Source: Liolophura sinensis (taxonomy: Eukaryota > Mollusca > Polyplacophora > Chitonida > Chitonidae). From it: a stretch of DNA of 64,000 bases. This document shows positions 9,701 through 51,400 of the stretch, in pieces. The position numbers and the translations under genes are program-made. The stretch lies in NCBI RefSeq assembly GCF_032854445.1, contig NC_088301.1, positions 21,013,808 to 21,077,807 on the forward strand. Reading direction: 5' to 3'. Every line of letters begins with the position of its first letter. The stretch's first letter is position 1. The notes under the pieces are model-generated. The model saw only the letters and a program-made list of their open reading frames with translations, was not told the DNA's origin and did not search any database.

Positions 9701-12700
9701 ACGGAGCTTTTGGACAATAGTAAATCATGACAGCATGGCCAATGGTGTTCAGAACAAGTTTGTTTTCACCATTATTGGGTGCAGCATTTATACAGGACTC
9801 AGACCCTTTATACAAGGATCATGGGCATAATTATGATTCAGCATCAGCAGATTTTCTTTTTGGCATGTGTTGAAAATGAAATGCATACTTGAAGTAAAGC
9901 TTGGAGATAATATATGACATGTTAACACGAGCAGTGATCAAGCTAAGATATGTTGTGGCCAGCCTGCGGGTATTTCCCCTTGCCGTCTGTGGAGATTAAC
10001 TTTGCCCCTGGCAGGAGAGAGCTAGCATGTTGATGGTTGCTCACAGTCGATTATATCGGTGGTTGAGCTCTTACTTTTTATAAGTGATTTGTTGATTGGT
10101 GTTTTACACTGTAACTCAAGAATACAAGTATTTCACTTATACAATGACGGCCAGCATTGTGGTGGGAGGAAACCGGGCAGAGCGGGGGAAACCCACGACC
10201 ATCCCCAGGTTGCCGGCAGACCCCCTGGCAGGAGGGAGCTAGCATACACGTATGTCTGTTGATGGTTGCTTGCAGTCGATTATGACGGTGATTTAACTCT
10301 TACGGACATGACAATTTATAAGTGAGTTATTTGATGAGTGTTTTACACTGTAACTCAAGAATGCAAGTATTTCACTTATAAGACAGTGTCCAGGATTATT
10401 ATGGAAGGAAACAAGGAAGAACAGGTACTAAAAGCCCTTCTCACTTTGGTCTATAAGTGCTATGACTTCAAAGTATGATATGCCAGTCCCATGTTCTTGT
10501 ATTCTGTGACTGTAGGACAAATGTGTTGTGTCTGAAGCATAAAGTGGATGCCATGGAGATGTTGATCTTGTCAAACGGCACTGGTGATAGCAGGAAAGAG
10601 AACAAATATGGTGAGTTTACAGATTTTCCAAGTGATGCAGATGTTGATTTGTAGTAAATTATTTGATTTATGTAGTTATTTGATGAGTGTTTTATGCCAT
10701 ACTCAAGAATATTTCATTTATACCTCGGTGGCCAGCATTATGGTGGGAGGAAACCAGGCAGAACCCGGGGGAAACCCACGACCATCCACAGGTTGCTGGA
10801 AAACCTTCCCACATACAACCAGAAAGGAAGAGAGTATGAGTTGGACTTGGATTCCTGTCTAGACTGCCAGCAACATGTGGTTGGGCGTGGGTTTCTTCCA
10901 GGCTCTGTTTGCTTTCCTGTCGCTATAATGCTGGCTGCCATGGTATAAGTGAAATATTAGTGAAATAGTCTTAAGTATGGCATGAAACACCAGTCAAATA
11001 AACAAATAAATGCTGTATCTAGATTAAAGAAGGTAAAATCTCAGAACTCTTTTAATACCCTGTATTGTGCTATAGGGGAAATCTGAACACCTTGTACTGA
11101 TTACACATGGTGAATTTTTAACACTGGTCAGATTACAGTAAGTGAAATAAGTTATTAAACAACCTATAACTTACAACAGGTCATCCTCAGGAGCATCCTA
11201 ATGGGTTCTGCCATAATTCAAATATTCAATCTGTTTGAGGTTGCAAGTCTATTAAACTCAGACCGATGTGACACCCTTAAATCTGAATGTCATGCTATAA
11301 CTGAAATATTCTGATCGTTAGTATCGTCTAGGTAAGTAAATGCAGTTGTATGGTCATGGTACATGATAGAGTTTTGTTTATGGGTGACTTCATGCAGTTA
11401 CAGATATTTGTAAAATTCCAGTTTTAGAGATGAGGGGCATAACTTGGACGTTAATTGTTAACTTTAAAATCCTCAATGTTCCTCTCTGGGCGTAAGTGGG
11501 AAGGCCTTCCAGCAACCTCTTGATCGTCGTGGGTTTCCCTCGGGCACGGCCGGTTTCCTCCCACCATAATGCTGTCATATAAGTGAAATATTCTTGAGGA
11601 AAACGTAAAACACCAATCAAATAAATAAATAAATAAATAAAATCCTCAATGTATTTCTGAATGCAGAAGGATCCAGAAAAAGACAGCAGGCTCGACTGCC
11701 TGTGGCAGAACTGTTATCAGATGACGACAGCTTAGACCTGGCAGACTATCATGACAGCTCAGACTTGTCACTGGCCCCCAAGCATAAACCCAGTCAAGAT
11801 ACCTTGGGTAAGTAGGGGGAAGAATGCTTGTGTTATCATGCTTATAGTTTCAGTAGGAGAAGAATGCTGATGGTTTCAGTTAGGGAAGAATGCTTATGAT
11901 TTCAGTAGGGGAAGAATGGTTATGGTGTCAGTAGGGGAAGAATGCTTATGGTTTCAGTAGGGGAAGAATGTTTATGGTGTCAGTAGGAGAAGAATGCTTA
12001 TGGTTTCAGTAGGGGAAGAATGCTTATGGTGTCAGTAGGGGAAGAATGCTTATGGTTTCAGTAGGGGAAGAATGGTATTGTTCTCAGTAGGGGAAGAATG
12101 GTATTGTTCTCAGTAGGTAAACAGTGCTTATGGTTTATGGTTTCAGTAGGGGAAGAATGGTTATGGTTTCAGTAGGGGAAGAATGCTTATGGTGTCAGTA
12201 GGGGAAGAATGCTTATGGTTTCAGTAGGGGAAGAATGCTTATGGTGTCAGTAGGGGAAGAATGCTTACGGTGTCAATAGGGAAAGAATGGTTATGGTGTC
12301 AGTAGGGGAAGAATGCTTATGGCGTCAGTAGGGGAAGAATGGTTATGGTGTTAGTAGGCGAAGAATGCTTATGGTGTCAGTAGAGGAAGAATGCTTATGG
12401 TTTATGGTTTCAGTAGGGGAAGAATGCTTATGGTGTCAGTAGGGGAAGAATGCTTATGGTGTCAGTAGGGGAAGAATGGTTATGGTGTCAGTAGGGGAAG
12501 ATGCTTATGGTGTCAGTAGGGGAAGAATGCTTATGGTGTCAGTAGGGGAAGAATGGTTTTGTTCTCATTAGGTAAACAGTGCTTATGGTTTATGGTTTCA
12601 GTAGGGGAAGAATGGTTATGGTTTCAGTAGGGGAAGAATGCTTATGGTGTCAGTAGGGGAAGAATGCTTATGGTTTCAGTAGGGGAAGAATGCTTATGGT

Positions 12701-13846
12701 GTCAGTAGGGGAAGAATGCTTACGGTGTCAATAGGGAAAGAATGGTTATGGTGTCAGTAGGGGAAGAATGCTTATGGCGTCAGTAGGGGAAGAATGGTTA
12801 TGGTGTTAGTAGGCGAAGAATGCTTATGGTGTCAGTAGAGGAAGAATGCTTATGGTTTATGGTTTCAGTAGGGGAAGAATGCTTATGGTGTCAGTAGGGG
12901 AAGAATGCTTATGGTGTCAGTAGGGGAAGAATGGTTATGGTGTCAGTAGGGGAAGATGCTTATGGTGTCAGTAGGGGAAGAATGCTTATGGTGTCAGTAG
13001 GGGAAGAATGGTTTTGTTCTCATTAGGTAAACAGTGCTTATGGTATATGGTTTCAGTAGGGGAAGAATGTTTACAGTTTCATTAGGGAATATAAATGTTG
13101 ATGTGCTTTTTGCCTTTCATTCTTGTATGAAAAACCACGTGCTTCTTTTGATGCCTTAGTTGTTTATTCACAGGCATGTGAGTTAGATTGAGATTAGGTC
13201 ATTGTTCTACGCATCCTTTTGGGCGGTATTGTGGTTTTATACAACTTCCACAAGGAACGGGTGTAAAATATACTATGTATTTAGGGGAACCCATTATGAA
13301 GGACATTTTCTGGTTGCCCGAGTAACTCTTGTTATTAAGTTAATAAAGCCACTCTGGATGGATTTACATTAGATAGTTAACTTCTTAACATCCTGGGGGA
13401 ATGTATGGTGTAATTGTCATTGTGCAAGTTCACATCAATAGTGTGCGTCAACCAAACAATTACTTTTACTGGCCTTTATAGGGTTAGTCCAGATATTCAA
13501 GTGGACAGGTGAAATAGAGATTTAGTGCTATTTTGACTCTCTGCTTTTAAGCACTTTTAAAATGGTAATGTAAATTTTGCTCCAACAAAATGGTCTCAGA
13601 AAGAGCTGTTTTGACACCATGCTCACATTTCTGGCTAATCCTCCTGGTTATTGTCATATTATGACTCTAAAACTTACAAATGATTAAAACGGAAATGAAA
13701 TGTAATAGAAGAAGAGTATTTATGGGCTTTTTTTTTTTTTAACAGTGCATGACAGTGATGAGGAGCTTGATCTGAATGACCTTGACCTGAGTGATGATAA
13801 GGATGACTTATCAGATGATGATCTTCTCACTGTGGATGATATATGA
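3760..13846 (+). CDS. Coiled-coil protein with acidic C-terminus, 404 aa, 11 exons (function unknown)
   Basis: Exons: 3760-3825, 4997-5075, 5994-6232, 6879-6960, 7461-7662, 8058-8125, 8368-8444, 9388-9452, 10516-10610, 11667-11807, 13746-13846. Every junction is GT-AG and phases chain without a stop, which is the main evidence. The start is the first ATG of the MDWEKKFQ exon, in the good context CACACCGCAATGG; the frame stays open upstream to 3670, so a longer N-terminus is possible. After about 60 low-complexity residues come heptad-like helices (from KVLEERLERQNK through IERLSKVVERLESERDQ, then RLELWKREVMTELDSIHKQL and DSLRKDIDGLKSRI). The last 80 residues hold two Asp/Ser clusters, ending in DDLLTVDDI. 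There is no signal peptide, membrane segment or catalytic motif. The layout loosely resembles CCDC159-type proteins, but that is a weak guess and no symbol is given. Introns carry several SINEs and a large minisatellite. Confidence 0.77.
4740..4890 (+). mobile_element. SINE fragment, family D (body only)
   Basis: Shares the order GGCGTCATGTCTG, ATGTCTTCGGGGTGAT, TACATGGACT, ATATGTACACACAC and CTGAAAAATT with the body of the longer copy at 32501-32845. The tRNA-like head is missing. It lies in intron 1 of the coiled-coil gene. Confidence 0.6.
5659..5928 (-). mobile_element. Family A tRNA-derived SINE (MetaSINE-like), full length, minus strand
   Basis: Read on the minus strand it starts with a tRNA-like head (box A near GTGGCTCAGTTGG, box B near GAGTTCAAGTCC). 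It continues through a conserved central module (GGATGGTCATGGGTTTCCC, CCATAATGCTGGCCGCCAT, GTGAAATATTCTTGAG) and ends in an ATAAATAA tail. Near-identical flanks ACTAGCATTTA (5648-5658) and ACTAACATTTA (5929-5939) are a target-site duplication with one mismatch. It sits in intron 2. The MetaSINE assignment is from memory of that superfamily's central domain. Confidence 0.88.
7850..8010 (+). mobile_element. Family A SINE, 5'-truncated, plus strand
   Basis: Only the 3' part remains: the central module (GGATGGTCGTGTGTTTC, GGTGGCCGCCATCAT, GTGAAACATTCTTGAG) followed by CAATCAAATAAATAAATAA. It lies in intron 5 of the coiled-coil gene, about 50 bp before exon 6. Confidence 0.8.
8715..9050 (+). repeat. 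Tandem repeat, 78-79 bp unit, four copies
   Basis: TGGTTTCACCCAAGC recurs at 8751, 8830, 8908 and 8986, giving spacings of 79, 78 and 78 bp. Each unit reads roughly 'TTTCCCGGCTGCATTTTAAG' followed by 'GTGAAGTGGTTTCACCCAAG', then a CCCATTAACCTCGCCATTGT segment. It lies in intron 7. The unit resembles a piece of a SINE body that was duplicated in place. Confidence 0.85.
10015..10430. repeat. Local duplication of about 220 bp carrying two minus-strand family A SINE remnants
   Basis: The order GAGAGCTAGCATG ... GTTGATGGTTGCT ... CAGTCGATTAT ... followed by GTGTTTTACACTGTAACTCA and a family A SINE start occurs twice (about 10015-10230 and 10225-10430). The first SINE remnant is 10087-10230 and the second is 10322-10420. 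The second is more decayed: its body ends in GACAGTGTCCAGGATTATTA. Both lie in intron 8. Confidence 0.75.
10676..10858 (-). mobile_element. Family A SINE, minus strand, left arm of an inverted pair
   Basis: On the plus strand it runs from GATGAGTGTTTTATGCCATA through GGCCAGCATTATGGTGGG to ATGAGTTGGACTTGGATTCC, so the tRNA-like end is cut just inside the head. A plus-strand copy follows within 10 bp, making a tail-out inverted pair in intron 9. Confidence 0.82.
10866..11015 (+). mobile_element. Family A SINE, plus strand, right arm of an inverted pair
   Basis: A diverged 3' part: CCAGCAACATGTGGTTGGGC, GTGGGTTTCTTCCAGGCTCT, ATAATGCTGGCTGCCATGG, then GTGAAATA (partly duplicated) and CAGTCAAATAAACAAATAAA. 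It is complementary to the preceding SINE over most of its length, so intron-9 RNA could form a long stem here. Confidence 0.8.
11480..11638 (+). mobile_element. Family A SINE, 5'-truncated, with a perfect 14-bp target duplication
   Basis: AAAATCCTCAATGT occurs at 11466-11479 and again at 11639-11652, exactly flanking a SINE that starts inside the body (CTGGGCGTAAGTGGGAAGG) and ends in (AATA)n. The insertion lies in intron 9 and its downstream duplication stops only 14 bp before exon 10 (11667). The presumed branch-point region therefore lies in the SINE tail or the duplicated target site. Confidence 0.93.
11815..13095 (+). repeat. 26-bp minisatellite with a 455-bp higher-order period (intron 10)
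   Basis: The unit is about CAGTAGGGGAAGAATGCTTA plus TGGTGT or TGGTTT, repeated about 45-50 times. A rarer variant, AGGTAAACAGTGCTTATGG, occurs at 12117, 12572 and 13027 (as GTAAACAGTGC), exactly 455 bp apart, so blocks of about 17 units were duplicated together. The array starts within the donor region of exon 10, GTAAGTAGGGGGAAGAATGC, which already contains most of a unit. Confidence 0.97.
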
Positions 13847-13869: not shown

Positions 13870-15315
13870 TGTTCCGAGTCATCAGTTGATGACATATCAT
13901 GGGGAAGGCTTCATCAAAATTCCTGGGTACGAAATGATAGAACAGTGAATATATTTTGACTCTACACCGTAATATTCCCAGTCGATTCGTTTGACTAACT
14001 ATGACAGGGAAGGCAGAATTCCTGATTACTAAAATGATGGGAGATTCACCTGTCATGATATCACTGTTGAATATATTTTGACTCTACTTGTACACTGTAA
14101 TGTTCCCAGTTGATTTGTTTGACTAACTATGACAGGGAAGGCAAAATTCCTGATTACTAAAATGATGGGAGATTCACACGTCATGATATCACTGTTGAAT
14201 ATATTTTGACTCTACTTGTACACTGTAATGTTCCCAGTTGATTCGTTTGACTAACTATGACAGGGAAGGCAGAATTCCTGATTACTAAAATGATGGGAGA
14301 TTCACCTGTCATGATATCACTGTTGAATATATTTTGACTCTACTTGTACACTGTAATGTTCCCAGTTGATTTGTTTGACTAACTATGACAGGGAAGGCAG
14401 AATTTCTGATTACTAAATGATGGGAGACTCACATGTCATGATATCACTGTTGAATATATTTTGACTCTACATGTACACTGTAATGTTCCCAGTCAATTTG
14501 TTCGACTAACTGTGACAGGGAAGGCAGAATTCCTGGTTGCTAAAATGATGGGAGACTCACACGTCATGATATGACTGTTGAATATATTTTGACTCTACAT
14601 GTACACTGTAATGTTCCCAGTCAATTTGTTTGACTAACTATGACAGGGAAGGCAGAATTCCTGGTTGCTAAAATGATGGGAGACTCACACGTCATGATAT
14701 CACTGTTGAATATATTTTGACTCTACATGTACACTGTAATGTTCCCAGTCAATTTGTTTGACTAACTATGACAGGGAAGGCAGAATTCCTGGTTGCTAAA
14801 ATGATGGGAGACTCACACGTCATGATATCACTGTTGAATATATTTTGACTCTACATGTACACTGTAATGTTCCCAGTCAATTTGTTTGACTAACTATGAC
14901 AGGGAAGGCAGAATTCCTGGTTGCTAAAATGATGGGAGACTCACACGTCATGATATCACTGTTGAATATATTTTGACTCTACATGAACACTATAATGTTC
15001 CCAGTCAATGTGTTTGACTAACTATGACAGGGAAGGCAGAATTCCTGGTTTCTAAAATGATGGGAGACTCACACGTCATGATATGACTGTTGAATATATT
15101 TTGACTCTACATGTACACTGTAATGTTCCCAGTCAATTTGTTTGACTAACTATGACAAGGAAGGCAGAATTCCTGGTTGCTAAAATGATGGGAGACTCAC
15201 ACATCATGATATGACTGTTGAATATATTTTGACTGTACGCAGTAATATTCCCAGTCAATTCGTTTCACTAACTGTGACAGGAAAGGCAGAATTCCTGGTT
15301 ACTTAATGACTAAAC
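13870..15315 (+). repeat. 128-bp tandem repeat, about 11 copies, immediately after the stop codon
   Basis: The motif GAATATATTTTGACTCTAC starts at 13947, 14069, 14197, 14325, 14452, 14580, 14708, 14836, 14964, 15092 and 15220: 128-bp spacing after the first, with one 127. The unit holds TGTTCCCAGTCAATTTGTTT, GACTAACTATGACAGGGAAG and ATGATGGGAGACTCACACGT. The middle copies are almost identical and the outer ones diverged, as expected for expansion by unequal exchange. It starts 24 bp after the stop at 13846, so it probably forms much of the 3' UTR. Confidence 0.96.
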
Positions 15316-20868: not shown

Positions 20869-21180
20869 TCATGAGTACAGGTGGATTCATGTATGCAGTC
20901 ATGAATACAGGTAGAATTCATGCATGAAGTCATGAGTACATGTGGATTCATGCATTAGTACAGGTGGATTCATGTATGCAGTCATGAGTACAGGTGGATT
21001 CATGCATGTAGTCATGAGTACATGTGGATTCATGCATGTAGTCATGAGTACATGTGGATTCATGCATGCAGTCATGAGTACACGTGGGTTCATGCATGCA
21101 GTCATGAGTACACGTGGGTTCATGCATGCAGTCATGAGTACACATGGATTCATGTATGCAGTCATGAATACAGGTGCACT
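20869..21180. repeat. 30-bp minisatellite, about 10 copies
   Basis: The unit is roughly CATGAGTACACGTGGGTTCA plus TGCATGCAGT. Because 30 is divisible by 3 and the unit lacks stops in several frames, it opens frames of 60-95 codons on both strands (for example GFMHAVMSTR and MTACMNPRVL repeats). The unit is rich in the palindromes CATG, GCATGC and TGCATGCA. It may lie in the DHCR24 3' UTR. Confidence 0.95.
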
Positions 21181-23264: not shown

Positions 23265-26200
23265 CTGAGGCAGATGTAATAAAATCTTAATAAAATGAAC
23301 CAATATTACTGCTACATGTAACTGGGACATGAATTAGTAAAAGAAAGCTGAGGTTCGAGACAGCACTGGAGAAGTGCTGATTACATCAGCCATATAGAAT
23401 TTAAAAGCTCTCGATGGGAGTTGATTGTGCTACTAACAGTATAAGCTGAATTGGCATTTCATGAATCCTGTTCACCCATTAGGGTTTAGGCAAGACATTA
23501 GGGGACACAAATCGCGGCTAAGAGGTGGTGAATGAATCATTACATGTACCATAGTGGTCATAGCATCTGGAATAAGCTGAAGATTTATGGTGGTTCAGAC
23601 AGAACATACCGAAGGTTTGTGATGGTCCAGACAGAAAATACTGAAGGTTTGTGGTGGTTCAGACAGAACATACCAAAGGTTTGTGGTGGTTCAGACAGAA
23701 CATGCTGAAGGTTTGTGGTGGTTCAGACAGAACATGCTGAAGGTTTGTGGCAGTTAAGACAGACAATGCTGAAGGTTTGTGGTGGTTCAGACAGAACATG
23801 CTGAAGGTTTGTGGCAGTTAAGACAGAATATGCTGAAAATTTGTGGTGGTTAAGACAGAGCATGTTGAAGGTTTGTGGTGGTTCAGGGGGAACATGCTTA
23901 AGGTTTATAAGAAAACAGGCCTAGGCCAACATTATATGTGGATGAGTACTTTCTCTGTCAAGAACAGCTAGTTCTCCCCGACAAAAACTGTAGCATAGAG
24001 GCATACAGTAAAACTAAGGGGTTTGCAATAGTGCGAACACGCAGGTACGCATGTACCAGTGCAATCTCAATACGGCACGCACAGATATGAGCATGCATTT
24101 TGTGAAGCTTTCTACATAAACTGTATGGTACACATGTAGCTGATTGTCAACACTCAGACGTGTACTGAACTTACCCATTCACACTTCGGACGAATGCCTC
24201 AATGGCCCTTGTAGAAGGGATAGTGGAGAACCTGGGGGACTTAGGGGTACCATACGCGCCGATGTCTACATACATCTGACCTTCACCTGAAGCAGGGTGC
24301 ACCATGCCGGGCAGACTGGGCAGGTAGAAAGGGCACAGCCAGAGAGGGTACAACTGAAACATGTTATAGCCAAGACATTGATATGTCATCATGTTTGCTG
24401 AAGAATCGAAATTGACCATTTATTGATTGCAGTACATTTTTTTCTGGTAAAATATATAATATTTTGAAAAAGAAAATGGTGTTTTTTCTCACCTATCAGG
24501 TATACATGTAACTATATGTAGAGAGATAGTCATTTTCAAATGTGGATGTTGATTAATCATTGCTGAGATTGGTTAGCAGTGGAGATATGAGATCCTAAGT
24601 TTAAAGGTGTCTACAATGTACAACTCCGCAGCTCCGGGTAAAACAGGCTTCTCAGAAAATCCCGTCATTTATTTCACTCGAGTAAAATCAGATGTTTTCT
24701 AAACCTTATCAACTGACCCACAGTGACTTTTGATTTCTTTAATTCACAACATTAGCACATTGCTTAACTTACATTTAACTCTTTGTGGAAGCATTGCAGA
24801 GACTCGTCCAGTTTGTCCATACGAACCAACATGTCCTGAATGACCTGGTGTTTCTCATACATCCGCTTGATTGTCTCCCCTTGGGTTAGTTTCAGCAAGG
24901 AAATTTTCGGAGGAACCATCCAGCCAAAAAGGTAACGGAAAAGCGGGTGGTTTCCAAAAGGTATGATGTCCTATGGAATGACAATCAGGGTAAAACAATG
25001 TCGTATGCATAGTTTCTAAAACGAAATATTACGCCTTTTAATTATCACAATAAACAATATCCTAATCAGTTATACCTGTATGTATAATATACAATACATG
25101 AAAAAAATGACTAAATTTTTGGAATTATTTGATTGCTTTGATTATTTTTATATGTTAAAATGAATAATTTAATTTAACTTATTGTAAGATCTAAAAAGTA
25201 TGCCAAATTGAAAATCTATATTTTATTCATCCTGGTATATGTGTACTCTAATCTGTGCTGAAACACCACCTGGTAACTAAGACAACCCAGACACGTTAAA
25301 GTCCAAACTACCTGGAGTTCCCAGAAGATGCTCTTGGTATGGCGATGGTAGTAGTGACGCAGTGGCAGATACTCCACCCCAGGGCCGCTCTCCAGGAACG
25401 ATTCCACGTGCTTGAAAAACCATGGCTTCCAAAACTTACCAATGGGATTTACCTGAAAGAGGATAAATGCATTTCTGGTGAGTATCAAAAACAGAAACTT
25501 TAAACACCTTTCAAAAGCTGAGTAAGTCATTAGCATAAGAAACTAAAGTTAACACAAACACTGACACCATGTAAGAAACTGTTATCCATAAAAGTTTTGG
25601 CCTCTCTGTCCGTACATGCCTGCGCAAGCTGTGGATGGTCGCGCGTTTCCATCAGGTTATGCCCAGTTTCGACCCACCATAGTACTGGCTGCTGTTGTAT
25701 AAGTGAAATATTTCTCTGTACGGCATAAAACACAAATCATCTAAATAAATAAATAAATCTTTTGATCTGAGTTTATGGTCATAAATAAATACCCTGCACC
25801 AAGTGAAAATACATGTGCAGTGTCCACTAAGTCAAAGTTTCATTTCTGCTTTGAAAACATTGATCCGTATGTCAAAATGCAAGGGTTTATATATACCTGC
25901 CCAAATTATGAAAAAACATACGGTAGCTTCTGAATGAATTTTGAACATACACGTATCAATTCAGGTGTCTGTTAAGTTTCAGCCATACCTTATTCAAATT
26001 AACGTCGTCCGTCATGTTTGCTGTCATGACAACAGCTTTATTTCTGGAGTAAACCAAACACTCCACAAACTGATTGTCAGATCGCTTCTCAGTTTCTTCT
26101 TCAAACTTCTTGATCATGTCGTCCTTGGAATGAACAGGGAAGTATTCCAGTTTGACATACTTTTTGGCAGGTATGATTCTCAGCTCCGCTGACACCAGGA

Positions 26201-29200
26201 AGCCCAGGGTTCCATATGACCAAGGTACAGAATAGAACAGGTCAGGATTTTCTGTCTGATAAGAAAATTATGAATGATGATAAATACAGCTACATGTAGT
26301 CCTTGATTGTCAAATAAAGTATCTTACAAGTAAAAGTGTAATGGTTGAAGGATTTGACGACATGGGTGACACCAGGATTCGAACTCGGGTCTCAGTAGCC
26401 CAAGTGACGTCAGAGTTCCTAGATACCATCAGTATGGTTCATACAGCCCACCATAGTAATCAAATATTTGAATGCCTTTCAACACTCAAAAATCTTAACA
26501 AATAAATGAAAGCATTTTTACACATAGTTTTCACTTGCCTGTATGTTAAACCTTACTTCATATTTTAGCTTTCTTTTACTTTAAAAATACACAAAATTAT
26601 TTTCCCCTGGGGGCTTCACCCCTAGACAAGCTAGTCCCCCTCCAGGAATTAGCTCTTGTGAACGCATGGTCACGTTGTCGGCTGTCAGCACTAGTTCCCC
26701 CAGAATCTCAGATGTCCCTGTGGACACTTTGTCACACTATCAGCACTACTTCCCTCAGATGTCAGATGTCTTGCCTATGAACACCTGGTCACACAGTCAA
26801 CTCTCAGCACTAGTTCCTCCAGACTGTCAGATGTCTAACCTGTGCACATCTGCTTACACTGTCAACTGTCAGCACGAGTTCTCTCAGATTGTCAGGTGTC
26901 TTACCTGTGAACATCTGGTCACAATGTCAGCTGTCAGCAGTCGGCACTGGTTCCCTGAGACTGTCATATGTCTTGCTTGTGAATACCTCGTCTGTCATCT
27001 GTCATCCTCACACTGTCTTACCTTTGAACACCTGGTCACACTGTCAGCTGTCAGCACTGGTTCCCTCAGACTGTCATATGTCTTGCTTGTGAATACCTCG
27101 TCTGTCATCTGTCATCCTCACAGTGTCTTACCCTTGAACACCTGGTCACACTGTCAGCAGTCAGCACTGGTTGCCTCAGACTGTCATATGTATTGCTTGT
27201 GAATACCTTGTCTGTCATCTGTCATCCTCATAGTGTCTTACCTTTGAACACCTGGTCACACTGTCAGCAGTCAGCACTGGTTCCCTCAGACTGTCATATG
27301 TCTTGCTTGTGAATACCTCATCTGTCATCTGTCATCCTCACAGTGTCTTACCTTTGAACACCTGGTCACACTGTCAGCAGTCAGCACTGGTTCCCTCAGA
27401 CTGGCATATGTCTTGCTTGTGAATACCTCGTCTGTCATCTGTCATCCTCACAGTGTCTTACCCTTGAACACCTGGTCACACTGTCAGCTGTAAGCTGTCA
27501 GCACTGGTTCCCCCAGAATCTCAGATGTCCCTGTGAACACTATGTCACACTATCAGCACTAGTTCCCTCAGATGTCAGATGTCTTACCTATGAACACCTG
27601 GTCACACAGTCAGCACTCAGCACTACTTCCTCCAGACTGTCAGATGTCTAACCTGTGCACACCTGCTTACACTGTCAACTGTCAGCATGAATTCTCTCAG
27701 ATTGTCAGGTGTCTAACCTGTGCACATCTGCTTACACTGTCAACTGTCAGCACGAGTTCTCTCAGATTGTCAGGTGTCTTACCTGTGAACATCTGGTCAC
27801 AATGTCAGCTGTCAGCAGTCGGCACTGGTTCCCTGAGACTGTCATATGTCTTGCTTGTGAATACCTCGTCTGTCATCTGTCATCCTCACACTGTCTTACC
27901 TTTGAACACCTGGTCACACTGTCAGCTGTCAGCACTGGTTCCCTCAGACTGTCATATGTCTTGCTTGTGAATACCTCGTCTGTCATCTGTCATCCTCACA
28001 GTGTCTTACCCTTGAACACCTGGTCACACTGTCAGCAGTCAGCACTGGTTGCCTCAGACTGTCATATGTATTGCTTGTGAATACCTTGTCTGTCATCTGT
28101 CATCCTCATAGTGTCTTACCTTTGAACACCTGGTCACACTGTCAGCAGTCAGCACTGGTTCCCTCAGACTGTCATATGTCTTGCTTGTGAATACCTCATC
28201 TGTCATCTGTCATCCTCACAGTGTCTTACCTTTGAACACCTGGTCACACTGTCAGCAGTCAGCACTGGTTCCCTCAGACTGGCATATGTCTTGCTTGTGA
28301 ATACCTCGTCTGTCATCTGTCATCCTCACAGTGTCTTACCCTTGAACACCTGGTCACACTGTCAGCTGTAAGCTGTCAGCACTGGTTCCCCCAGAATCTC
28401 AGATGTCCCTGTGAACACTATGTCACACTATCAGCACTAGTTCCCTCAGATGTCAGATGTCTTACCTATGAACACCTGGTCACACAGTCAGCACTCAGCA
28501 CTACTTCCTCCAGACTGTCAGATGTCTAACCTGTGCACATCTGCTTACACTGTCAACTGTCAGCATGAATTCTCTCAGATTGTCAGGTGTCTTACCTGTG
28601 AACATCTGGTCACAAAGTCAGCTGTCAGCAGTCGGCACTGGTTCCCTGAGACTGTCATATGTCTTGCTTGTGAATACCTCGTCTGTCATCTGTCATCCTC
28701 ACACTGTCTTACCTTTGAACACCTGGTCACACTGTCAGCAGTCAGCACTGGTTCCCTCAGACTGTCATATGTCTTGCTTGTGAATACCTCGTCTGTCATC
28801 TGTCATCCTCACAGTGTCTTACCCTTGAACACCTGGTCACACTGTCAGCAGTCAGCACTGGTTCCCTCAGACTGTCATATGTCTTGCTTGTGAATACCTC
28901 GTCTGTCATCTGTCATCCTCACAGTGTCTTACCCTTGAACACCTGGTCACACTGTCAGCAGTCAGCACTGGTTCCCTCAGACTGTCATATGTCTTGCTTG
29001 TGAGTACCTCGTCTGTCATCTGTCATCCTCACAGTGTCTTACCTTTGAACACCTGGTCACACTGTCAGCAGTCAGCACTGGTTCCCTCAGACTGGCATAT
29101 GTCTTGCTTGTGAATACCACGTCTGTCATCTGTCATCCTCACAGTGTCTTACCTTTGAACACCTGGTCACACTGTCAGCTGTCAGCACTAGTTCCCCCAG

Positions 29201-32200
29201 AATCTCAGATGTCCCTGTGAACACTATGTCACACTATCAGCACTAGTTCCCTCAGATGTCAGATGTCTTACCTATGAACACCTGGTCACACAGTCAGCTC
29301 TCAGCACAAGTTCCTCCAGACTGTCTGATGTCTAACCTGTGCACACCTGCTTACACTGTCAACTGTCAGCACGAGTTCTCTCAGATTGTCAGGTGTCTTA
29401 CCTGTGAACATCTGGTCACAATGTCAGCTGTCAGCAGTCGGCACTGGTTCCCTGAGACTGTCATATGTCTTGCTTGTGAATACCTCGTCTGTCATGTGTC
29501 ATCCTCACAGTGTCTTACCTTTGAACACCTGGTCACACTGTCAGCATTCAGCACTGGTTCCCTCAGACTGTCATATGTCTTGCTTGTGAGTACCTCGTCT
29601 GTCATCTGTCATCCTCACAGTGTCTTACCTTTGAACACCTGGTCACACTGTCAGCATTCAGCACTGGTTCCCTCAGACTGTCATATGTCTTGCTTGTGAG
29701 TACCTCGTCTGTCATCTGTCATCCTCACAGTGTCTTACCTTTGAACACCTGGTCACACTGTCAGCATTCAGCACTGGTTCCCTCAGACTGTCATATGTCT
29801 TGCTTGTGAGTACCTCGTCTGTCATCTGTCATCCTCACAGTGTCTTACCTTTGAACACCTGGTCACACTGTCAGCATTCAGCACTGGTTCCCTCAGACTG
29901 TCATATGTCTTGCTTGTAAGTACCTCGTCTGTCATCTGTCATCCTCACAGTGTCTTACCTTTGAACACCTGGTCACACTGTCAGCATTCAGCACTGGTTC
30001 CCTCAGACTGTCATATGTCTTGCTTGTGAGTACCTCGTCTGTCATCTGTCATCCTCACAGTGTCTTACCTTTGAACACCTGGTCACACTGTCAGCATTCA
30101 GCACTGGTTCCCTCAGACTGTCATATGTCTTGCTTGTGAGTACCTCATCTGTCATCTGTCATCCTCACAGTGTCTTACCTTTGAACACCTGGTCACACTG
30201 TCAGCATTCAGCACTGGTTCCCTCAGACTGTCATATGTCTTGCTTGTGAGTACCTCGTCTGTCATCTGTCATCCTCACAGTGTCTTACCTTTGAACACCT
30301 GGTCACACTGTCAGCATTCAGCACTGGTTCCCTCAGACTGTCATATGTCTTGCTTGTGATAATCTCGTCACTCACACTGTCAGCTGAAGCATTATTTGTT
30401 TGTGTCTTACCCTTGAACACCTGGTCACACTGTCAGCTGTCAGCACAAGTTCCTTCAGACTGTCACATGTTTGTTTTGACCTCCTCAAACTGAGTAGCTG
30501 GCACTATTTGTCCAGGGGTCTTACCTTTGAACACCTGGTGACACTACCATCAGCCAAAACCAGTTCAAAGCTGACACAACAGTGTTGGAACAGGCCATAC
30601 TTGTGGGAAGATGTCTCTATTCCTACACCCATAATCAGCCCACCTGGCAACACAAAATATTGATACACATATAAAATAATGTTTAATTGCAATTAACTGT
30701 CACATAATTATTATCCTATCAGTGAGTGACCATGTAACAAATTAATATCCTGCAAAAAACCCATCACTTCAGCGCAGAGAGACAAAGTACTGACAAATCA
30801 CTTCCGAGGCATCACTGTTTTCACAGCCGCACAAACAGAGATGACCAAGTGAACAGGCAGATATGACCTCTGCTGCAGGATGCTGGAATATACAAGTCCC
30901 CAATGTGCTTGAAGTAGATTGCCTCATGCTCGAAAGCGTAAATGATACCAGCGTGGGTACACTACTTGATCTTAAGTTGAGAAGATTAGTAATTTCATTA
31001 GCTCGACGTGCGAGTAGAAATGTTCACCTGCTAATAATGAAATATTAGGCTCAGGATCACAGGGCTCTGCTCGAGATCTTAGTTGAACTGAGAGAAAATA
31101 CCTGCTTTAGTGAGCAGCTAGTTTTATAGTCATTTTAGACCCCATTCACAAGGGTGTATAAATGTTAACTGCTGAATCATTAGAAAAACACTTCTGAAAA
31201 TGTAGGCAAGAAAAGATACTGACTAGTACATTGGCAACACGCATTGCTATGAGCCGGTGCATTTGACTCAGAAAAAGGTAAACAGAAAAAAATTTCCTCC
31301 ACCTGGGCTGTATTCCTCACGTGTTTCAGCAAATGAATTAGCTTATCTAAGGCAGCTTGACCAATCGGAGGCCTGGAATTTTCTCAGAGTTGTGATAAAG
31401 CGACACCACTCACCCACAGTGAGATCATCTAACTCAGGGAGTACCGGCAGAGTCCAGCCCAGGGGATTGAGGGTGGCTGTGATTTGCCCCATGGTGGTCA
31501 ATGGCTCCACGCGGACAATCTGCCGGTTAGCGTCCATGTCCAGTATGTCCACTAGGTTCACCTGAATCTTCTGGAAGGTTTTCTTGTACACAGCGTTTCT
31601 CAGGCAAACATTCATCCAGCCGGGACGAGCCGTGCACATGTAAGAACGAGCACCACCATCCCTCCATTGTCGTACCTGGTAATCACATGACAGACTTCAG
31701 TCTTAACAACAAATTAGTTGTTTAACGTTACCTGTACCTTAATAATATTTATGCAGCTGTGTTCATTGGGATCATCGAGCACTCAGAGCTGACCTCATTA
31801 AGTAAATGGCTAAATATGTTGAAACATACATACATGAAGTAAAAAATATGACCAACCATCCACTGGTCGATAAGTGAGAATTTTTTTTATTGGTCTGGCT
31901 AATGCATGAGAAGGTAAGGATTTCAAACAAACGGACAAAGAGAAATAAAATTTAAGAAAAAAAAAAAACAAACAAAATTCTAATAAAAGCTTTCAAGAGA
32001 GTAAATTTCCCTTCTTTGGCTGGCTTACATCCAACAAATATATTTATATTTATAAATATAACCTGACAAAGAGAAAATTTTTTTTAGAAAAACAACAAAA
32101 TTCTAATAAAAGCTTTCAAGAGAGTACAGGGCCCGTTTTTAGTTCGCTTACATCCAACGAATATATTTTAAATGATGGCCTAATGAGCTATGCTGGGGTG

Positions 32201-35200
32201 TTCTTATGAGTCAGGCAATGGTAGAAATTTTCACATTTCAGAAATACTCTGTGGAACACAAGATTTTGGATATTAAATCTTCACTTTAAATTAAAAGTAC
32301 CGATATGTATAATATTAATAGGATATGGTCACAATGTTATTTGAAGATTGTTTATTATTTTGCATACATGTCACAATGGCAAAGTTTACTCGTATTAGAT
32401 CTCATGGCTTTCATTCATGTCTTATATACTAATTAGTTAAACCATGTTAAAAATTTAGCAAATGTAGTATATGGATACAAATTTTTTTTGCATATCTCAG
32501 ACTTCAGTGGCCTATTGGTTGGAGCATATGCCTTTAAGTTGGGAGACCCGGGATCAAACCCAAGTCTGGCTCTACCAAAGACTGTTAAAGTCGTAATTGC
32601 TGTGGTCTTTCTTGGCGCTCAACACGAAGAGGTTAGAGCAAGGAAACAGGACTGTTAGTTAGTATAATATGACTGGGTGGGGTGTCATGTCTGGTGTCTT
32701 AGGCATGATTCTCCAGTGGTGTCAGCACTTTGGTTACATGAACTCACACTGCCACAAGAACACACAGTATATGTACACACACCTAACGATGACTCCTCAT
32801 CATGTGGCTGAAAAATTGACTGATAAGTACGATTTTAAATGCCATTCATTCATTCATTCATTCGTCTTAGGGCACCCCCTCAACAAAACCAAAATACAGA
32901 GCCATCTCCCTATATAACCGAGTGTCTATCAGTTTGAAAAGCATGGTCAGATGACCTTTTTTTCCCCCTTTGTATTCATCTCAGGTGATTTCTTTTAGAA
33001 AGTCATATAAGTACCACTCCTCTTTTTACCTGTGTGTAATAAGGACTAGTCCAACATTAAAGGCAATGTTGGGAAAAACTTCTTGTGGCATATTTAGGTG
33101 TACACGCACCTAAACACCAGTTATATGTACACGAATACATTTTAATACATTTATCTCTTTTTTAAAAAAATTTCAAAAATAATTTAATTTTTTTTTTTTT
33201 TTTATGCGAACAGTTTTCAGTTGTCCATCTGATGAACCTTACTTCATGATTTAAAGATTTCTTTCACTGAGTACTGAGGGCCAATAAGAACAATCTCCGG
33301 GCATTATTTGCTCCCTACAAATGACACAAATAAGTCTAATAAATTTTTTTTTTTTTTTTTTTTTTGATTGGTGTTTTACGCCGTACTCAAGAACATTTCA
33401 CTTATACGACGGCGGCCAGGATTATGGTGGGAGGAAACTGGGCAGAGCCCGGGGGAAACCCACGACCATCCGCAGGTTGCTGGAAGACCTTCCCACGTAC
33501 GGCCGGAGAGGAAGCCAGCATGAGCTGGACTTGAACTCACAGCGACCGCATTGGTGAGAGACTGCTGGGTCATTACGCTGCGCTAGCGCGCTAACCAACT
33601 GAGCCACGGAGGCCCCAAATAAGTCTATACTCAGTGTGTGCATATTGCCCTGTTTGGTATTAAGTCTTAAATATATCTGTCTGGCTTTTGGTACCATATG
33701 TAACATGTTTATGCTGGCACACGCACAGGTAGATGTGGGGGCTACCTTGGTATGTATGCACCTGTAATCAAGGTGATGAGCCATTGATCCATCTCTTCAC
33801 CCACCCAGATAAGATTAACTAAGGTACAAAGGTATGTAGTTATGGGGTACATAACAGCTACGCATGTATGGACATGATGAAAGTTTTGACAGCTCAGCCA
33901 GCACCTGTTACCCGCTCTCTCAAGCAGGTGAGGCTAAGGCGAGTGGTTCTATTTGGGTTAGCAGGTGAACAGGTCAAGGCAAACAGTAAACAGTCAATAT
34001 TCTGAAGATCAACAACTGAGTATCAAAATCCGAGCTGATAGACCACCTGAAGATCTGTGCCCAGTTAGAGATCACGTAAACTATTCAGTTAGTATGAAAT
34101 TAAGTTCTTTATGCCACATAGTGTGTATGGTGCAATCCATCCATCTTTAATAAAACCCAAATCAGTCACACTGCCATATCTACTTCTGTACTGAATTTCC
34201 CTCTCAGTCTATATGGCATACCCCTCCCTGTCTCTTTGCATGCTGTACCCGACCCTGTCTGCATGTTGTACTCCCACCCTCTCTCTCTGTCTCTTTTGCA
34301 CTGCCATTCTACATATATCTATTTCCCTACTGTCTGTTTGTCTGCCCTTACTCCACCCTGTTTGTCTGTATGCTATGCCCCACCCTGTCCATTTGTCTGC
34401 ATGCTGCATTTCCACCCGTCTGTTTGACTGTATGTTGTATCCCCACCATCTGTTTGTCTGTATGCTGTACCCCAGCCTGTCTGTTTGTCTGTATGCTGTA
34501 CTCCCACCCTGTCTGTACTACCACCCTGTCTGTTTGTCTGTATGCTGTACCCCCACCCTGTCTGTATGCTCTACACCAACCTGTCTGCTTGTCTGTATGC
34601 TGTAACCCCACCCTGTCTGTTTGTCTGTTTGCTGTACCCCCACCCTGTCTGTTTGTCTGCTTGCTACTTTGTCTGCCTATTTGTCTGTACCCCCACCCTG
34701 TCTATCAGTCTGTATGCTGTACCCCACCGTGTCTTTATGTCTGTATGCTGTACCCCCACCCTCTCTGTTTGTCTGTATGCCGTACCTGACCCTGTCTGTA
34801 TGCTGTACCCTGACACTGTCTCTCTGCCTTTTTTGCACCCCCATTATCTATCCTCTTGCTGTCTTTTTGTCTGCCCTTACTCCACCCTGTTTGTCAGCAT
34901 GCTATGCCCCACCCTGTCTGTCTGTATGCTGTACCCCCATCCAGTCTGTCTGTATGCTGTATCCCCAACTTTCTGTTTGTATGTTGTATCCCCCACCCTG
35001 TCTGCTGTACCCCCAATCCACCCTGTCTCTATGCTGTACCCCATCCTGCCGGTCTGTATGTTGTACCCTACCCTGCCTGTCTATATGCTGTACCCCCATC
35101 CTGTCTGCCGGTCTGTATGTTGTACCCTCAGCTTGTCTGTCTGTATGCTGTACCCTCACTCTCCCTACTGTACCCTATGCTGTCTGCCGTATCCCCAGCC

Positions 35201-38200
35201 TGTCTGTCTGTGTGCTGTACTCCCATCTTGTCTGCTGTACCCACTGAGCCTATCTTCAACCTTTTCAACCACCAAAGCTTTTTTTCTGTGGAATTAATGC
35301 ATAGAATTATTATATAAATAATGCTAAAATGATTTGTTTGTGTCCCAAAAGCTTCACCCTTCACAAACTGTGCAGATTATATATTTACACCCATAGTTCT
35401 TTCAGAAAGTTTCAAAATATTGGTTGCAGTGGTGGTTGAAAAGATTGAAGAATTAGGGTAGTTACTATTAAGGAACCAGGAAGGTTAATTTCCCCTGTGA
35501 TAATATATTTATGCTGCAATGTCCAAGATGTCATTGTTTCAAGGTGAACATTTCAAAGTGTGTTATATATCCATCTGCTGGTGTTACGTCTTGTGACAGG
35601 ACTGGGGGGCAGTGGGAGGTGGGGGGAAGGGGGTGGCTTCTGTGTCACTAGTGTCAGGTGTAGCTTGTGTGATAATCCTGAGAGTAGGTCAGTTAAGCTA
35701 TATCCACATCTGTCCTAAATCCTGGATAATCCTGTGTCCTCAGCTAGTTGATCAGTCCTTAGATGAGGCAGCCACCCAGGTGACAGATTTGCTTCTCAAG
35801 TACCTGTATGTGTGGGATGTGAATTGTAGGTACTTGTATCTCCACTTACTGAAACAAGTTCATTAAATAAAGTTCCTTAAATACCAGAAACATATATCAC
35901 AATAGATAGGGTACTATATATTTATGGTGTTTTGATATTACTTTTATATCAAGTTTAACAGAGGAGTTTAAGAGGAGAATACCGCACAGACTGGAAGGGG
36001 TGTATTGAAATATACAATGGATGGGGTACTTTATGTGAAAGTAAATGAGTGGGATATATTATATACAGAATACACTATGGAATACACTATGGCATGCTGG
36101 GACTGTCGTACAAACAGTTGGCTATATCGCTAGGTTGGGTGTACCAGACTTACTAGGCAGGATATAACATACAAAGTGGGTGCATGGGTAAACCATAGGG
36201 TATATACTGGGTGTGGTATACCATATGGATTGGGTGGTGAACATTTTATGGGCTGAGTAGGGTAAATGTCATACAGACTGGGTGGGGTACATCTCCCAGA
36301 CCATGTATATATGTATACCATATAGGGGGTGGGGTACATCTCCCAGACCATGTATATATGTATATCATATAGGATGGGGTACATCGTCCAGACCATGTAT
36401 ATATGTATACCATATAGGGTGGGGTACATATTCCAGACCATGTATATATGTATACCATATAGGGTGGGGTACATCTTCCAGACCATGTATATATACATGT
36501 ATGTATACCATATAGGATGGGGTACATCTCCCAGACCATGTATATATGTATACCATATAGGATGGGGTACATCGTCCAGACCATGTATATATGTATACCA
36601 TATAGGGTGGGGTACATCGTCCAGACCATGTATATATGTATACCATATAGGGTGAGGTACATCTTCCAGACTATGTATATACATATATGTATACCATATA
36701 GGGTGGGGTACATCTTCCAGACCATGTATATACATATATGTATACCATATAGGGTGGGGTACATACACAACATACAGAGAGAGAGGATAGAGCATATATA
36801 TACAGTGGTGGTACAGCATACAGACAGACAATTGGGGTTGGGGTACAGCTTACAAGCAGATAAACGGGGCGAGGGTACAGCATACAGATAGGCAGGGTGT
36901 GGTACAGCATACAGATAGGCAGGGTGGGGTACAGCATACCGATAGGCAGGGTGGGGCCACAGCATACAGACATACATGGTGGGGTATAGCATACAGCATA
37001 TCATTTACACAATAATTCTATGCATAAATTCCTCTGAAAAAAAGTGCTTTAGTGGCTGAAAATGTTGAAGATTTAAAGTACCTCACTTGACAAGACTAAC
37101 ATCACAACTGGTGAAGACTGTGTTCCAAGTGCAAGAGGTAAAACAGGTCTTTTCACATTTGTTTTTTTTTATATCTTACATTCTTTCATGAGAAAAATTA
37201 ATTGCTTTTATACAGGAAGCCCATCTCCATGTGTTGGACATTTACAATGTCATTTGTTTTTGGTCACAAATGTCACAATTAAGTGAACACAACAAAGAAA
37301 GGCTAACTGAAAGAAAGGAATGCAGACAATAAATCACACGGCTAGAAAATAAACCTTGAACCCACCCCCTCCCCTGAAAATAAGAGCATTTAAACTTGCT
37401 TGAAATTATAAAGTTTTGTAAATTTCATGATTTTTTACATATATTTTTTATTTAACTCTTCGTAGTGTTATTTAGTCACAGGAATTTCTTAAGTTTCTCT
37501 TAGTTATTAACCTGTATACTTATATTACAAGTTCTACATATGTGTGTAAATCTGAGAATCTCATTTCATGAGTCATGGTAAAAGCGAAAACAAGTCACTT
37601 CATTTGTTCACCTATTGTTTGATTATTGTAATTTGTAATATAGGCCTACCTATACGTTATATATGCGTAACTTAAAGACTCATTACTGGCTGGCCTAACC
37701 ATCCACGCATGCAATGGCTTCTATCAAACGACTCCAACGGAATATAAAATAGGCAATACATCTGTCTCATCACTTAAATTTTTGTCATATACATGTAGGT
37801 TGTAAAATTTTCCATATCGCAACACACACGAAACTGCGCGCGAGGGATTAGCTCTAATTAACAACATTAAGTTCTGATTCATCTTGTGGCATAGCCGTGT
37901 AGCCCGGCTGCGGAGGCCCCCGAGGGTGGGACGCGCCGAGTCATAACGACGCGCAATATTGGTAAAACACAAATCGCTGCAGGAAATGTCTTAATTAGTA
38001 CTACTTCAATAAAGTTGCTATCTTACCTGCCTTTGGACATCTTGTACTTTTTGATCGTGTCTTTTGGGAGCCGAACTGAGCTTAAATATGATGTAATTGC
38101 GAAGGTAGTACCAGACATCGTATACAACCGACACGGGAAGCAGGAACAAACAGACGAAAATCCAGCGATAGTTCATCAAGATGTATTCCAAACCTCGATA

Positions 38201-48400: not shown

Positions 48401-51400
48401 TCGATCGCTTATGTCGTCGTCATATGACTGAAAAATTTTTGAGTACGACGTTAAACCCCAAGCACTCACTCACTCACTCGATCGCTTATGGTCACCTTGC
48501 AAGGCTCTACGAAATCATATGCAGTCGTAGGGTTATGTGTGATAACATTGTTCCATTTGTAAATGACACAAACTCTAATGGCAAAACCCTCACACTCACG
48601 TCCATTTTGAGCAGTCTGTCGCCTTAATGGTAAGAGACTTTTTTCCTTACAAATCTTGCGGCTCCTGTGTTTGTATATTTATCATGAATTTATAAATTTA
48701 TTTATTTCATTGGTGTTTTACGCCGTGCTAAAAATATTTCACTTATATACACGACAGCAGCCAGCATTAGGATGAGTGGAAACTGGGTAGAGCCCGAGGG
48801 AAACCAACGACCATTCGCAGCTTGCTGGAAGACCTTCCCACATACGTATTATAAATTCATTTAACTTTTACTTATTGGCCAAACTTCCCATCTTGTCAGG
48901 TAAGCTGCCAGCGGAAGTTTATTAGAACAGAGACCCGACATAAAACCTTTAGTTTTAGATCCACATGATCTACTTCATTGACTTTCTGTCTGCATTTATT
49001 TTGCTTTTCGCATAGTATTGTTTTCAGGTCACGACTGACACTTTCAGTAGTGTCTACATCTGTTCAAAATTAAACGATTTGGTGGCAAAACACTAGAAAT
49101 ATTTTATATAGACTGTGTGAAGGTCTAGCTCGTACCTTAAAGAGTTTGACGGAAATACTCTCAATTCCTCTTCCGGTTTGGTTGATAACCTGTCCGTGGA
49201 CTACGATTGGTTCTCCAGGCGTATATCCGGACTTTGATGTGGTCCACGTGACTTGCACAGACCCGGAGAAACAGCACAGTAAGTTGAATGGAAGAGAGCC
49301 TTGGACTTGCTGTGGAATCTGAAAAAATGCATGAAGTGGATTATGGTTTTCGTCCTCATACGACGACATGAAATTGGCATGGAATGTTCCTCGAACAAAA
49401 ATTTACTCTCAAGTCAAACACTATATTAATGTTGTAAATGTTGTACGCTTTTCTTACAAGCAAAAAACTTGCATCATTTTGTTGAAACCGTGTCCGGGGC
49501 CGATTCAAAAAAGCCATTTCTGACTTAAGTCAGAATTTCAAATACGATCTTAAGGCTTATTTTTCAGTTTTATACAGTAAAATTTTGTCCATCTCATCAG
49601 TATTATCTTCAGACAAATGTATCCAAATTTTAACATTCAGTGCCAAAAACTAAGTCTTGTGGAGAGGTTTTAAATTTTGATTTAATTTAGAAATGCCTTT
49701 GTGGAATTGGCCCCTGGTACTTACGTGAGCATTCGGTTCCTTGTTAAGGTCTACATATCTGTGGATGGTGAGCAACAAGGGGTGGGTGGTCTCGTCAAAG
49801 TTCCAGGGACGGTCTATCACAGCTCTCATCCGGTATACGATACTGCCATACTTTCCACGAAACGTCGACGGAATGTTCTCCGGGATGAGAGCCTGGAAGG
49901 GGTACCGAACCGGGCCGACTTGGTGGACAGAGTTCTTCCCCTTGTCTCCGGGAGCTGAAATCAAAAGTTTGCATGAATCCCTGTGAATATGTTGAAATAT
50001 TTACATTCAGTCATTTTCGCGCAAACAGGTATTCGCACAAATTGCACATGGAATACTTAATTATTTTATCACACACCGCCAATCAAGGAACATAAATTGC
50101 CCATGGAATACTTAATCATTTTATCACACACCGCCAATCAAGAAACATAAATTGCCCATGGAATACTTAATCATTTTATCACACACCGCCAAAAAAGGAA
50201 CATCAATTGCTCATGGAATACTTAATCATTTTATCACACACCGCCAAACACTGAACATAAATTGTCCATGAAACACTTAATCATTTTATCACACCCCGCC
50301 AAACACTGAACATAAATTGCTGTTGATATATTCACGTTTCATACGCTCATTTAATCATGTAACCAAGGGATGACCTCAACTAAAGCAAAATAAACCAAAT
50401 TTCTTATCTGGTCACAACAAAAGCCGTGAAGTACGGCCACGTGACATCGCTTCTCTTTCACATCAGAGTTGTATCCTTACAATTTATTGCCTTACTTATT
50501 TAACGCCTTACTGAAGAGTTCTCAATTTTTTATACATGGGTGAAGGGTATCCAGCTTAAACCATCGACCTTTGGCAAGTTGCTGACGAACTTTCCCACCT
50601 GTGACGCGCAGATATATGCACACCATGTTGGTGGAAGACTAGTGGTCCTCAACGAATTTTACACGGCACAAACGGGCTGTGGGTTAGTTATTCTCATCCG
50701 AAGGGGTCACTCAGAGTGGGGGAATGTAAAATTTATCGATTTAACCACAGTCCTTGGGGTAAACCAACTAGCTTGGGCAAGTTCCTTTTATTTATTTATT
50801 TATTTGAATGGTCTTTCACGTCCTACTCAAGAATGCCTCACTTACAAGACGGCGGCCAACATTATGATGGGAGGAAACACATGACCATCCAAACATTGCT
50901 GGTGGATATGTGTGGCCAAAGAAGCTTGCATGAGATGGACAAACTTACTGATATTGATCTTCATACCTGTACAGAAATTCACACATCCTCTGCGTTTTTG
51001 AATGTGGTATATTACACCTATATACACCTTATAGCCACTTACCTTTGCCATATATAATGATTGTTTGATCTACATATTTCTCGCTCGTCTTCAGAATCAG
51101 CCTACTGTCATCGGGATTTTTCTTCCACTTCACATTGGCCTCACCAGAGAAGTACAATCGAATACCTGTAGTGAAACGACATCATTTATTTACTAGTTCT
51201 TTTTGTCTAATCCTTGTTTAACACCATACTGAAGAATTTTTCATTTAATTGCATCGGGTACAAAACCTGATAATTTGAATAAAAATGCAAACATGGATAA
51301 ATTTATAATTAGAATGAGTAAATGTCCAAGTCATGTTTATCATTCTCGCGAAGTTTCATTAAGGTGATGTGAAAACTGTGAGACTACCAGGCCCAAACAT

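Follow-up and report, generated by a model that had tools for sequence, protein, structure and literature searches.

A mirage-like minisatellite of copied exon-intron junctions in the presumed DHCR24 gene of the chiton Liolophura sinensis

Introduction

How does an intron come to hold dozens of near copies of its own 5' splice site, and do these copies have a role of their own? The question is raised by intron 3 of a gene on contig NC_088301.1 of the chiton Liolophura sinensis, within a stretch of 64,000 nucleotides that was analysed as a whole (the window; coordinates below are window positions unless a contig is named). A first-pass annotation of the window described the intron as an array of decoy donors copied from the exon-3 junction and suggested that donor choice could control productive mRNA.

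The annotation also held the arrangement to be undescribed, which is not the case. In amphioxus, minisatellite-like tandem duplications of exon-intron boundaries, called mirages, have been described in Adh3, the globin genes BflGb6 and BflGb9, troponin C and PGBD5 (PMC3087553, PMC3902484). In the available portions of these reports, many mirage units contain AG/GT signals, the arrays are unstable in length and regular splicing is undisturbed; the inner units evolve in concert, with the boundary unit excluded (PMC3087553, PMC3902484). Mirages have also been proposed there as a source of new introns (PMC3087553).

Results

Structure of the gene and of the intron 3 array

The gene is located on the minus strand. 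We take it to be DHCR24, a name that comes from the first-pass annotation. Family searches returned FAD-linked oxidase and no hit named DHCR24, the exon 3 segment aligns to FAD oxidases, and the end of exon 3, aligned with EncM, lies within the FAD-binding region. A genome search, which gives a lower bound, matched the gene at one locus only. Exon 3 (119 nt, 30525..30643, minus strand) ends with SVTRCSK in phase 0, its last base being 30525, and is followed by the 4269-bp intron 3 (26256..30524, minus strand), of which 90.5% is occupied by the array. Exon 4 (25989..26255, minus strand) begins with TENPDLFYS after TTTTCTTATCAG.

The array spans about 3.9 kb inside intron 3 (26660..30539, minus strand) and comprises 38 aligned units including the junction unit, 65 to 148 bp long and mostly 110 bp. 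Its seed is a 22-mer across the authentic donor, ACCAGGTGTTCAAAG/GTAAGAC (30518..30539, minus strand; the slash marks the exon-intron border and the GT is at 30524-30523). This 22-mer has 32 further copies on the minus strand at up to two mismatches (17 exact, 10 with one and 5 with two), and no match on the plus strand at up to six. GTAAG is present in 31 of the 32 near-copies, in agreement with the 31 further places that had been counted before, and the remaining one (26789) has GCAAG. More distant copies are also present in the array: five with GTTAG (4-5 mismatches) and 21 decayed half-unit copies (5-6 mismatches).

The earlier statement that the copy occurs once per ~110-bp unit applies to many units, and elsewhere the spacing varies from 65 to 126 bp. 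The array mixes units of 110 bp and 65 bp, and the latter half of the longer unit is itself a decayed copy, with 5-6 mismatches and an offset of 45/65 bp; Tandem Repeats Finder likewise gave periods of 110 and 65 bp. Eight successive units with the exact 22-mer, spaced at 110 bp, form a homogeneous stretch (29512..30303, minus strand) that points to recent expansion. Further into the intron, a seven-unit block starting at 28480 recurs letter-identical at a distance of 878 bp, from 27602 (26854..28480, minus strand), and is a recent block duplication. Stops are few on the antisense of the array (26585-30493, plus strand), and open frames that overlap one another reach 205 amino acids; these are probably meaningless, because the 110-bp period is no multiple of three.

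Origin from the exon-3 junction

Alignments with shuffled controls were used to compare the array with its surroundings. Exon 3 scored 23.5 against the array (shuffle maximum 20.5) and the start of intron 3 scored 28.0 (shuffle maximum 21.0), neither being reached in 500 shuffles, and intron 2, taken as a control, gave 12 of 500. When the last 15 nt of exon 3 were removed, the score against the array was not significant (346 of 500 shuffles), so only some 20-25 nt at the exon end are securely shared, and these form the exonic portion of the repeat unit. In a donor test, the segment from -30 to +15 was aligned with the next 3 kb and compared with 1000 shuffles. The exon-3 donor scored 28.0 against a shuffle maximum of 16.5 (0 of 1000). 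Donors of exons 2, 4, 5, 6 and 7 were unremarkable in the same test (438, 770, 710, 244 and 705 of 1000).

The junction unit aligns with array units along its length and is most divergent in its intronic middle. The flanking context that the first-pass annotation saw in the exon-adjacent unit is confirmed by ACAAATARTGC, which is common to that unit and the start of intron 3. Chance identity of junction and array is ruled out by the shuffle tests and the donor test. Lack of any identity beyond GTAAG, named in the annotation as the result that would speak against it, was looked for by alignment and not found. Since the end of exon 3 codes for conserved protein, the exon predates the array, which is its copy; read in this way, the sequences indicate copying from the junction into the array. 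Descent of the array from the exon-3/intron-3 junction, as first proposed, is thus upheld by the shuffle tests and the conserved coding exon end.

Occurrence of the repeat elsewhere and quality of the assembly

A dispersed satellite or transposon could instead have landed beside exon 3 by chance and merely resemble the junction. Minisatellites are indeed frequent in this genome, with 12 arrays in the 64 kb of the window and 12 in 70 kb elsewhere. Genome DNA and pattern searches, which give lower bounds, however found no array of this repeat outside the DHCR24 locus, and the shared stretch is coding and runs on into the intron. In a 20-mer search, 33 of 39 matches fell at the locus; the other six were single sites with two mismatches, around which no array was shown. 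Occurrence of the same repeat far from the gene, the second contrary result that the annotation had named, was therefore searched for genome-wide, at the level of a lower bound, and not found. Barring copies in masked or missing stretches of the genome, a dispersed repeat is rejected on this placement within what the searches covered, and we regard a chance landing as scarcely credible.

Inflation of a short repeat by the assembly is a further explanation to be weighed. The assembly analysed has 609,464,459 bases in 632 contigs. In C99 (108,685 bases; locus L001) cox1 appears seven times at intervals of about 15.5 kb, and C632 has one further copy; C99 is a head-to-tail mitochondrial concatemer. 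The mitochondrial gene order, nad3-nad2-cox1-cox2-atp6 with names assigned by us, fits a mollusc. Such a concatemer in the same assembly, together with the letter-identical seven-unit blocks, would favour an artefact. Against it, many scattered substitutions distinguish the units in ordered patterns, and the HiFi reads are reported, in the available part of the source, to average 8,347 bp, exceeding the array length (PMC11068029). An artefact is thus highly unlikely, and an error in copy number would leave the junction origin of the array untouched. The same source gives the published chiton assembly as 609.5 Mb in 632 scaffolds (PMC11068029), and its species was later corrected to Liolophura sinensis (PMC12441733). 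The array length is that of this one assembly.

Decoy donors and splicing

The triplets before the decoy GTAAGA are AAG (17), AGG (7), CAG (4) and TAG (3). In 17 of the 31 GTAAG decoys, the nine bases around the site are identical to those of the real donor, and the four CAG/GTAAGA decoys exceed the real donor by one match to the U1 complement. By this measure the 31 decoys are about as strong as the real donor, as the first-pass annotation had supposed. Past the authentic exon-3 donor the reading frame continues for 6 codons and then stops, which agrees with its prediction of a stop within seven codons on retention.

None of 235 YAG sites in the array was acceptor-like at the threshold of at least 13 pyrimidines of 18, and the best had 10, compared with 12 to 14 at five true acceptors. 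If used at all, a decoy could therefore serve only as a later end of exon 3, and its use would extend the exon and lead to the stop after 6 codons. Pseudo-exons within the array were rejected because the array is without acceptor-like sites. Recursive or ratchet splice sites were also rejected, the best array YAG having 10 of 18 pyrimidines before GT against the 12 to 14 of true acceptors.

These features could suit a regulatory array, in which many equal donors compete with the authentic donor for U1 and array length tunes sterol synthesis. The strength of the decoys (31 with GTAAG, 17 with all nine bases of the real donor, four with one additional U1 match), the early stop, and the lack of acceptor-like sites, by which any decoy use would extend exon 3, all speak for it. 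The donor positions, however, show no sign of being kept more than other positions. Across the aligned units, the donor 9-mer changed at 1.11 parsimony steps per site compared with 1.26 in 43 other well-filled columns and ranked 36 of 57 windows, on a tree that treats conversion-prone units as a phylogeny although converting units follow no true tree. Selection on the decoys, for or against, was not seen in this rate test. The same structure occurs at unrelated genes (see below), which speaks for a tendency of the genome to mutate in this way, and amphioxus mirages are reported with undisturbed splicing in the available text of both sources (PMC3087553, PMC3902484), RT-PCR on mirages being said to show normal splicing (PMC3087553). 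Control of productive DHCR24 mRNA by donor choice therefore finds no support, since the decoy positions drift like other array positions. We consider a regulatory array improbable, and equally so the mechanism by which it would act, namely that decoy use adds a stop and leads to decay of DHCR24 mRNA.

Donor-bearing arrays at other genes

Seventeen other AGGTRAG arrays were fetched from those listed in the first 2.9 Mb of contig C1. Four of them begin at donors of recognisable exons, namely two RPTOR exons (E values 1.8e-15 and 1.6e-11), an ankyrin exon (Pfam PF12796, 2.1e-11) and a zinc-dehydrogenase exon (Pfam PF00107, 2.4e-9; no match against PDB). Two more are tentative, L012 and L015, and a further tentative array, L015b, was found by chance outside the 17. 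L012 consists of 81-bp units and has an antistasin match in the Pfam scan; it was kept from the firm count because units of this length preserve the reading frame and could be coding sequence. Open frame and repeat structure make L015 and L015b exon-like, and neither has a significant Pfam match. For 11 of the 17 (L002, L003, L004, L005, L006, L008, L010, L011, L013, L014 and L018) there was no exon evidence; among these, L003, L008, L010, L011 and L013 were scanned against Pfam and the others have very short frames.

All seven arrays at recognised or tentative exons (the four firm ones, L012, L015 and L015b) passed the donor test, each with 0 of 1000 shuffles. With its 60 exonic nt taken by themselves, the second RPTOR exon did not rise above its shuffles (13.0 vs 14.5). 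A splice-donor-derived satellite is thus not special to a sterol synthesis gene, as at least four other arrays start at exon donors, and mirages recur in this minisatellite-rich genome.

Some local features of these loci were also observed. The two RPTOR exons, one in L016 (G000:C1:2082800-2085500) and the other in L017 (G000:C1:2110000-2112500), are distinct and separated by about 27 kb, and a donor-derived tandem array directly follows each. At positions 1-1202 of L016 there is a 54-bp array of 22 copies, the joined unit ends of which read TTTCTGCA/GGTATGTTTTACAG, with a CAG/GTATGT-like donor in it. L015 (G000:C1:1901500-1904500) holds two neighbouring coiled-coil-like exons, from 1261 and 2459, both seemingly followed by a junction-derived array with units of 80 and 126 bp.

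Donors as birth sites of minisatellites

Donors might be preferred birth sites of minisatellites, for example through R-loops or breaks at exon-intron borders. Genome-wide, three AGGTRAG motifs at 87-117 bp spacing gave 8,443 matches, and five control motifs of the same letters gave 3,082, 5,209, 3,461, 2,963 and 3,462. At 52-82 bp spacing there were 8,919 matches compared with 3,211 for the reversed motif, although these figures, like those at the wider spacing, count matches and not arrays, so that a few long arrays weigh heavily. The triple motif thus outnumbers same-letter motifs at both spacings, while the excess of the single motif over the reversed control is only 1.22.

Unselected sequence gives a different picture. 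AGGTRAG arrays numbered 0 of 12 in an unselected 70 kb; with the window added, the motif was present in 1 of 24 arrays (0.29 expected), and two control motifs did equally well with one each. The other eleven minisatellites of the window (8723-9037, 11838-13044, 13963-15303, 20869-21176, 23576-23906, 34358-34828, 34878-35155, 36280-36764, 36873-36996, 50039-50320 and 55237-55341) include none with AGGTRAG in at least 40% of units. Of the many minisatellites in this genome, only a small fraction are donor arrays. With 12 arrays in 70 kb and a mean unit of 57 bp, about 1% of positions, and hence of donors, would fall within a seed unit even if seeding were random, and since births are frequent some must span donors. 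A preference for donors is accordingly possible but doubtful.

Discussion

Like the mirages of amphioxus, the DHCR24 array consists of tandem, minisatellite-like units, has a unit across the host exon-intron boundary, and contains splice signals in many units (the 31 GTAAG decoys); it is likened to mirages by these three structural features, which are known here from sequence. Unlike them, it is found in a mollusc and not in a cephalochordate host, and it is longer, with 38 aligned units over 3.9 kb, than the BflGb6 haplotypes of 6 and 3 units given in the available amphioxus account. As in the reported gain of introns by tandem genomic duplication of AGGT (PMC3443670), the duplication copies splice-site sequence. 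In that process, as far as the source's available text describes it, an exonic AGGT is doubled and a new intron arises between the copies, whereas here the existing intron 3 swells; the copies sit within the same intron, which has one usable acceptor and no new one, and intron gain was rejected on this ground. A large intronic minisatellite is also reported in intron 1 of an earthworm metallothionein gene (PMC12783039). There, too, a long array fills an intron, but the accessible part of that report mentions no exon-intron junction origin, unlike the DHCR24 array (PMC12783039).

Very probably, then, the DHCR24 array is a mirage, that is, a junction-born minisatellite which was amplified and homogenised and has no dedicated function. 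A short segment across the exon-3/intron-3 boundary would have been duplicated in tandem, and one copy would have fallen into the intron. Amplification and homogenisation may have followed by slippage or unequal exchange, the DNA mechanism being our inference. The first copy would remain the working exon end and donor, and the other copies would be passengers leaving with intron 3. The first donor is presumably in use, as it ends a normal-sized exon and is transcribed first, and the amphioxus reports lend support by analogy; selection could tolerate the array if this is so.

The mirages of this genome are most likely neutral. As a counterpoint, GTAAG is retained in 31 of 32 near-copies, a motif that neutral decay could erode, but homogenisation explains the retention. 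A second counterpoint, here to a passive mirage, is that the four CAG/GTAAGA decoys surpass the real donor in their match to the U1 complement.

In the literature searched, which covered few subscription-journal papers, no published mollusc mirage was found. New here are mirages in a mollusc, recurring within one genome. We would go further only tentatively: donors may be preferred, some thousand introns may carry decoy-donor arrays (a rough figure, scaled from the AGGTRAG arrays in the first 2.9 Mb of one contig with a quarter to a third exon-anchored), and lancelets and molluscs may have come to this state independently, a set of claims that we think rather unlikely to hold together. If it were true, such genes would be natural experiments on competition among dozens of near-identical donors, where the choice would have to be made by position alone.

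Junction-seeded minisatellites are no mere lancelet curiosity, as a mollusc has them repeatedly, with RPTOR and DHCR24 among the conserved genes concerned. With up to dozens of nearly identical 5' splice sites per transcript, each mirage intron is a natural test of first-donor choice. Mirage introns also call for caution in gene annotation and in taking donor strength as what decides usage.
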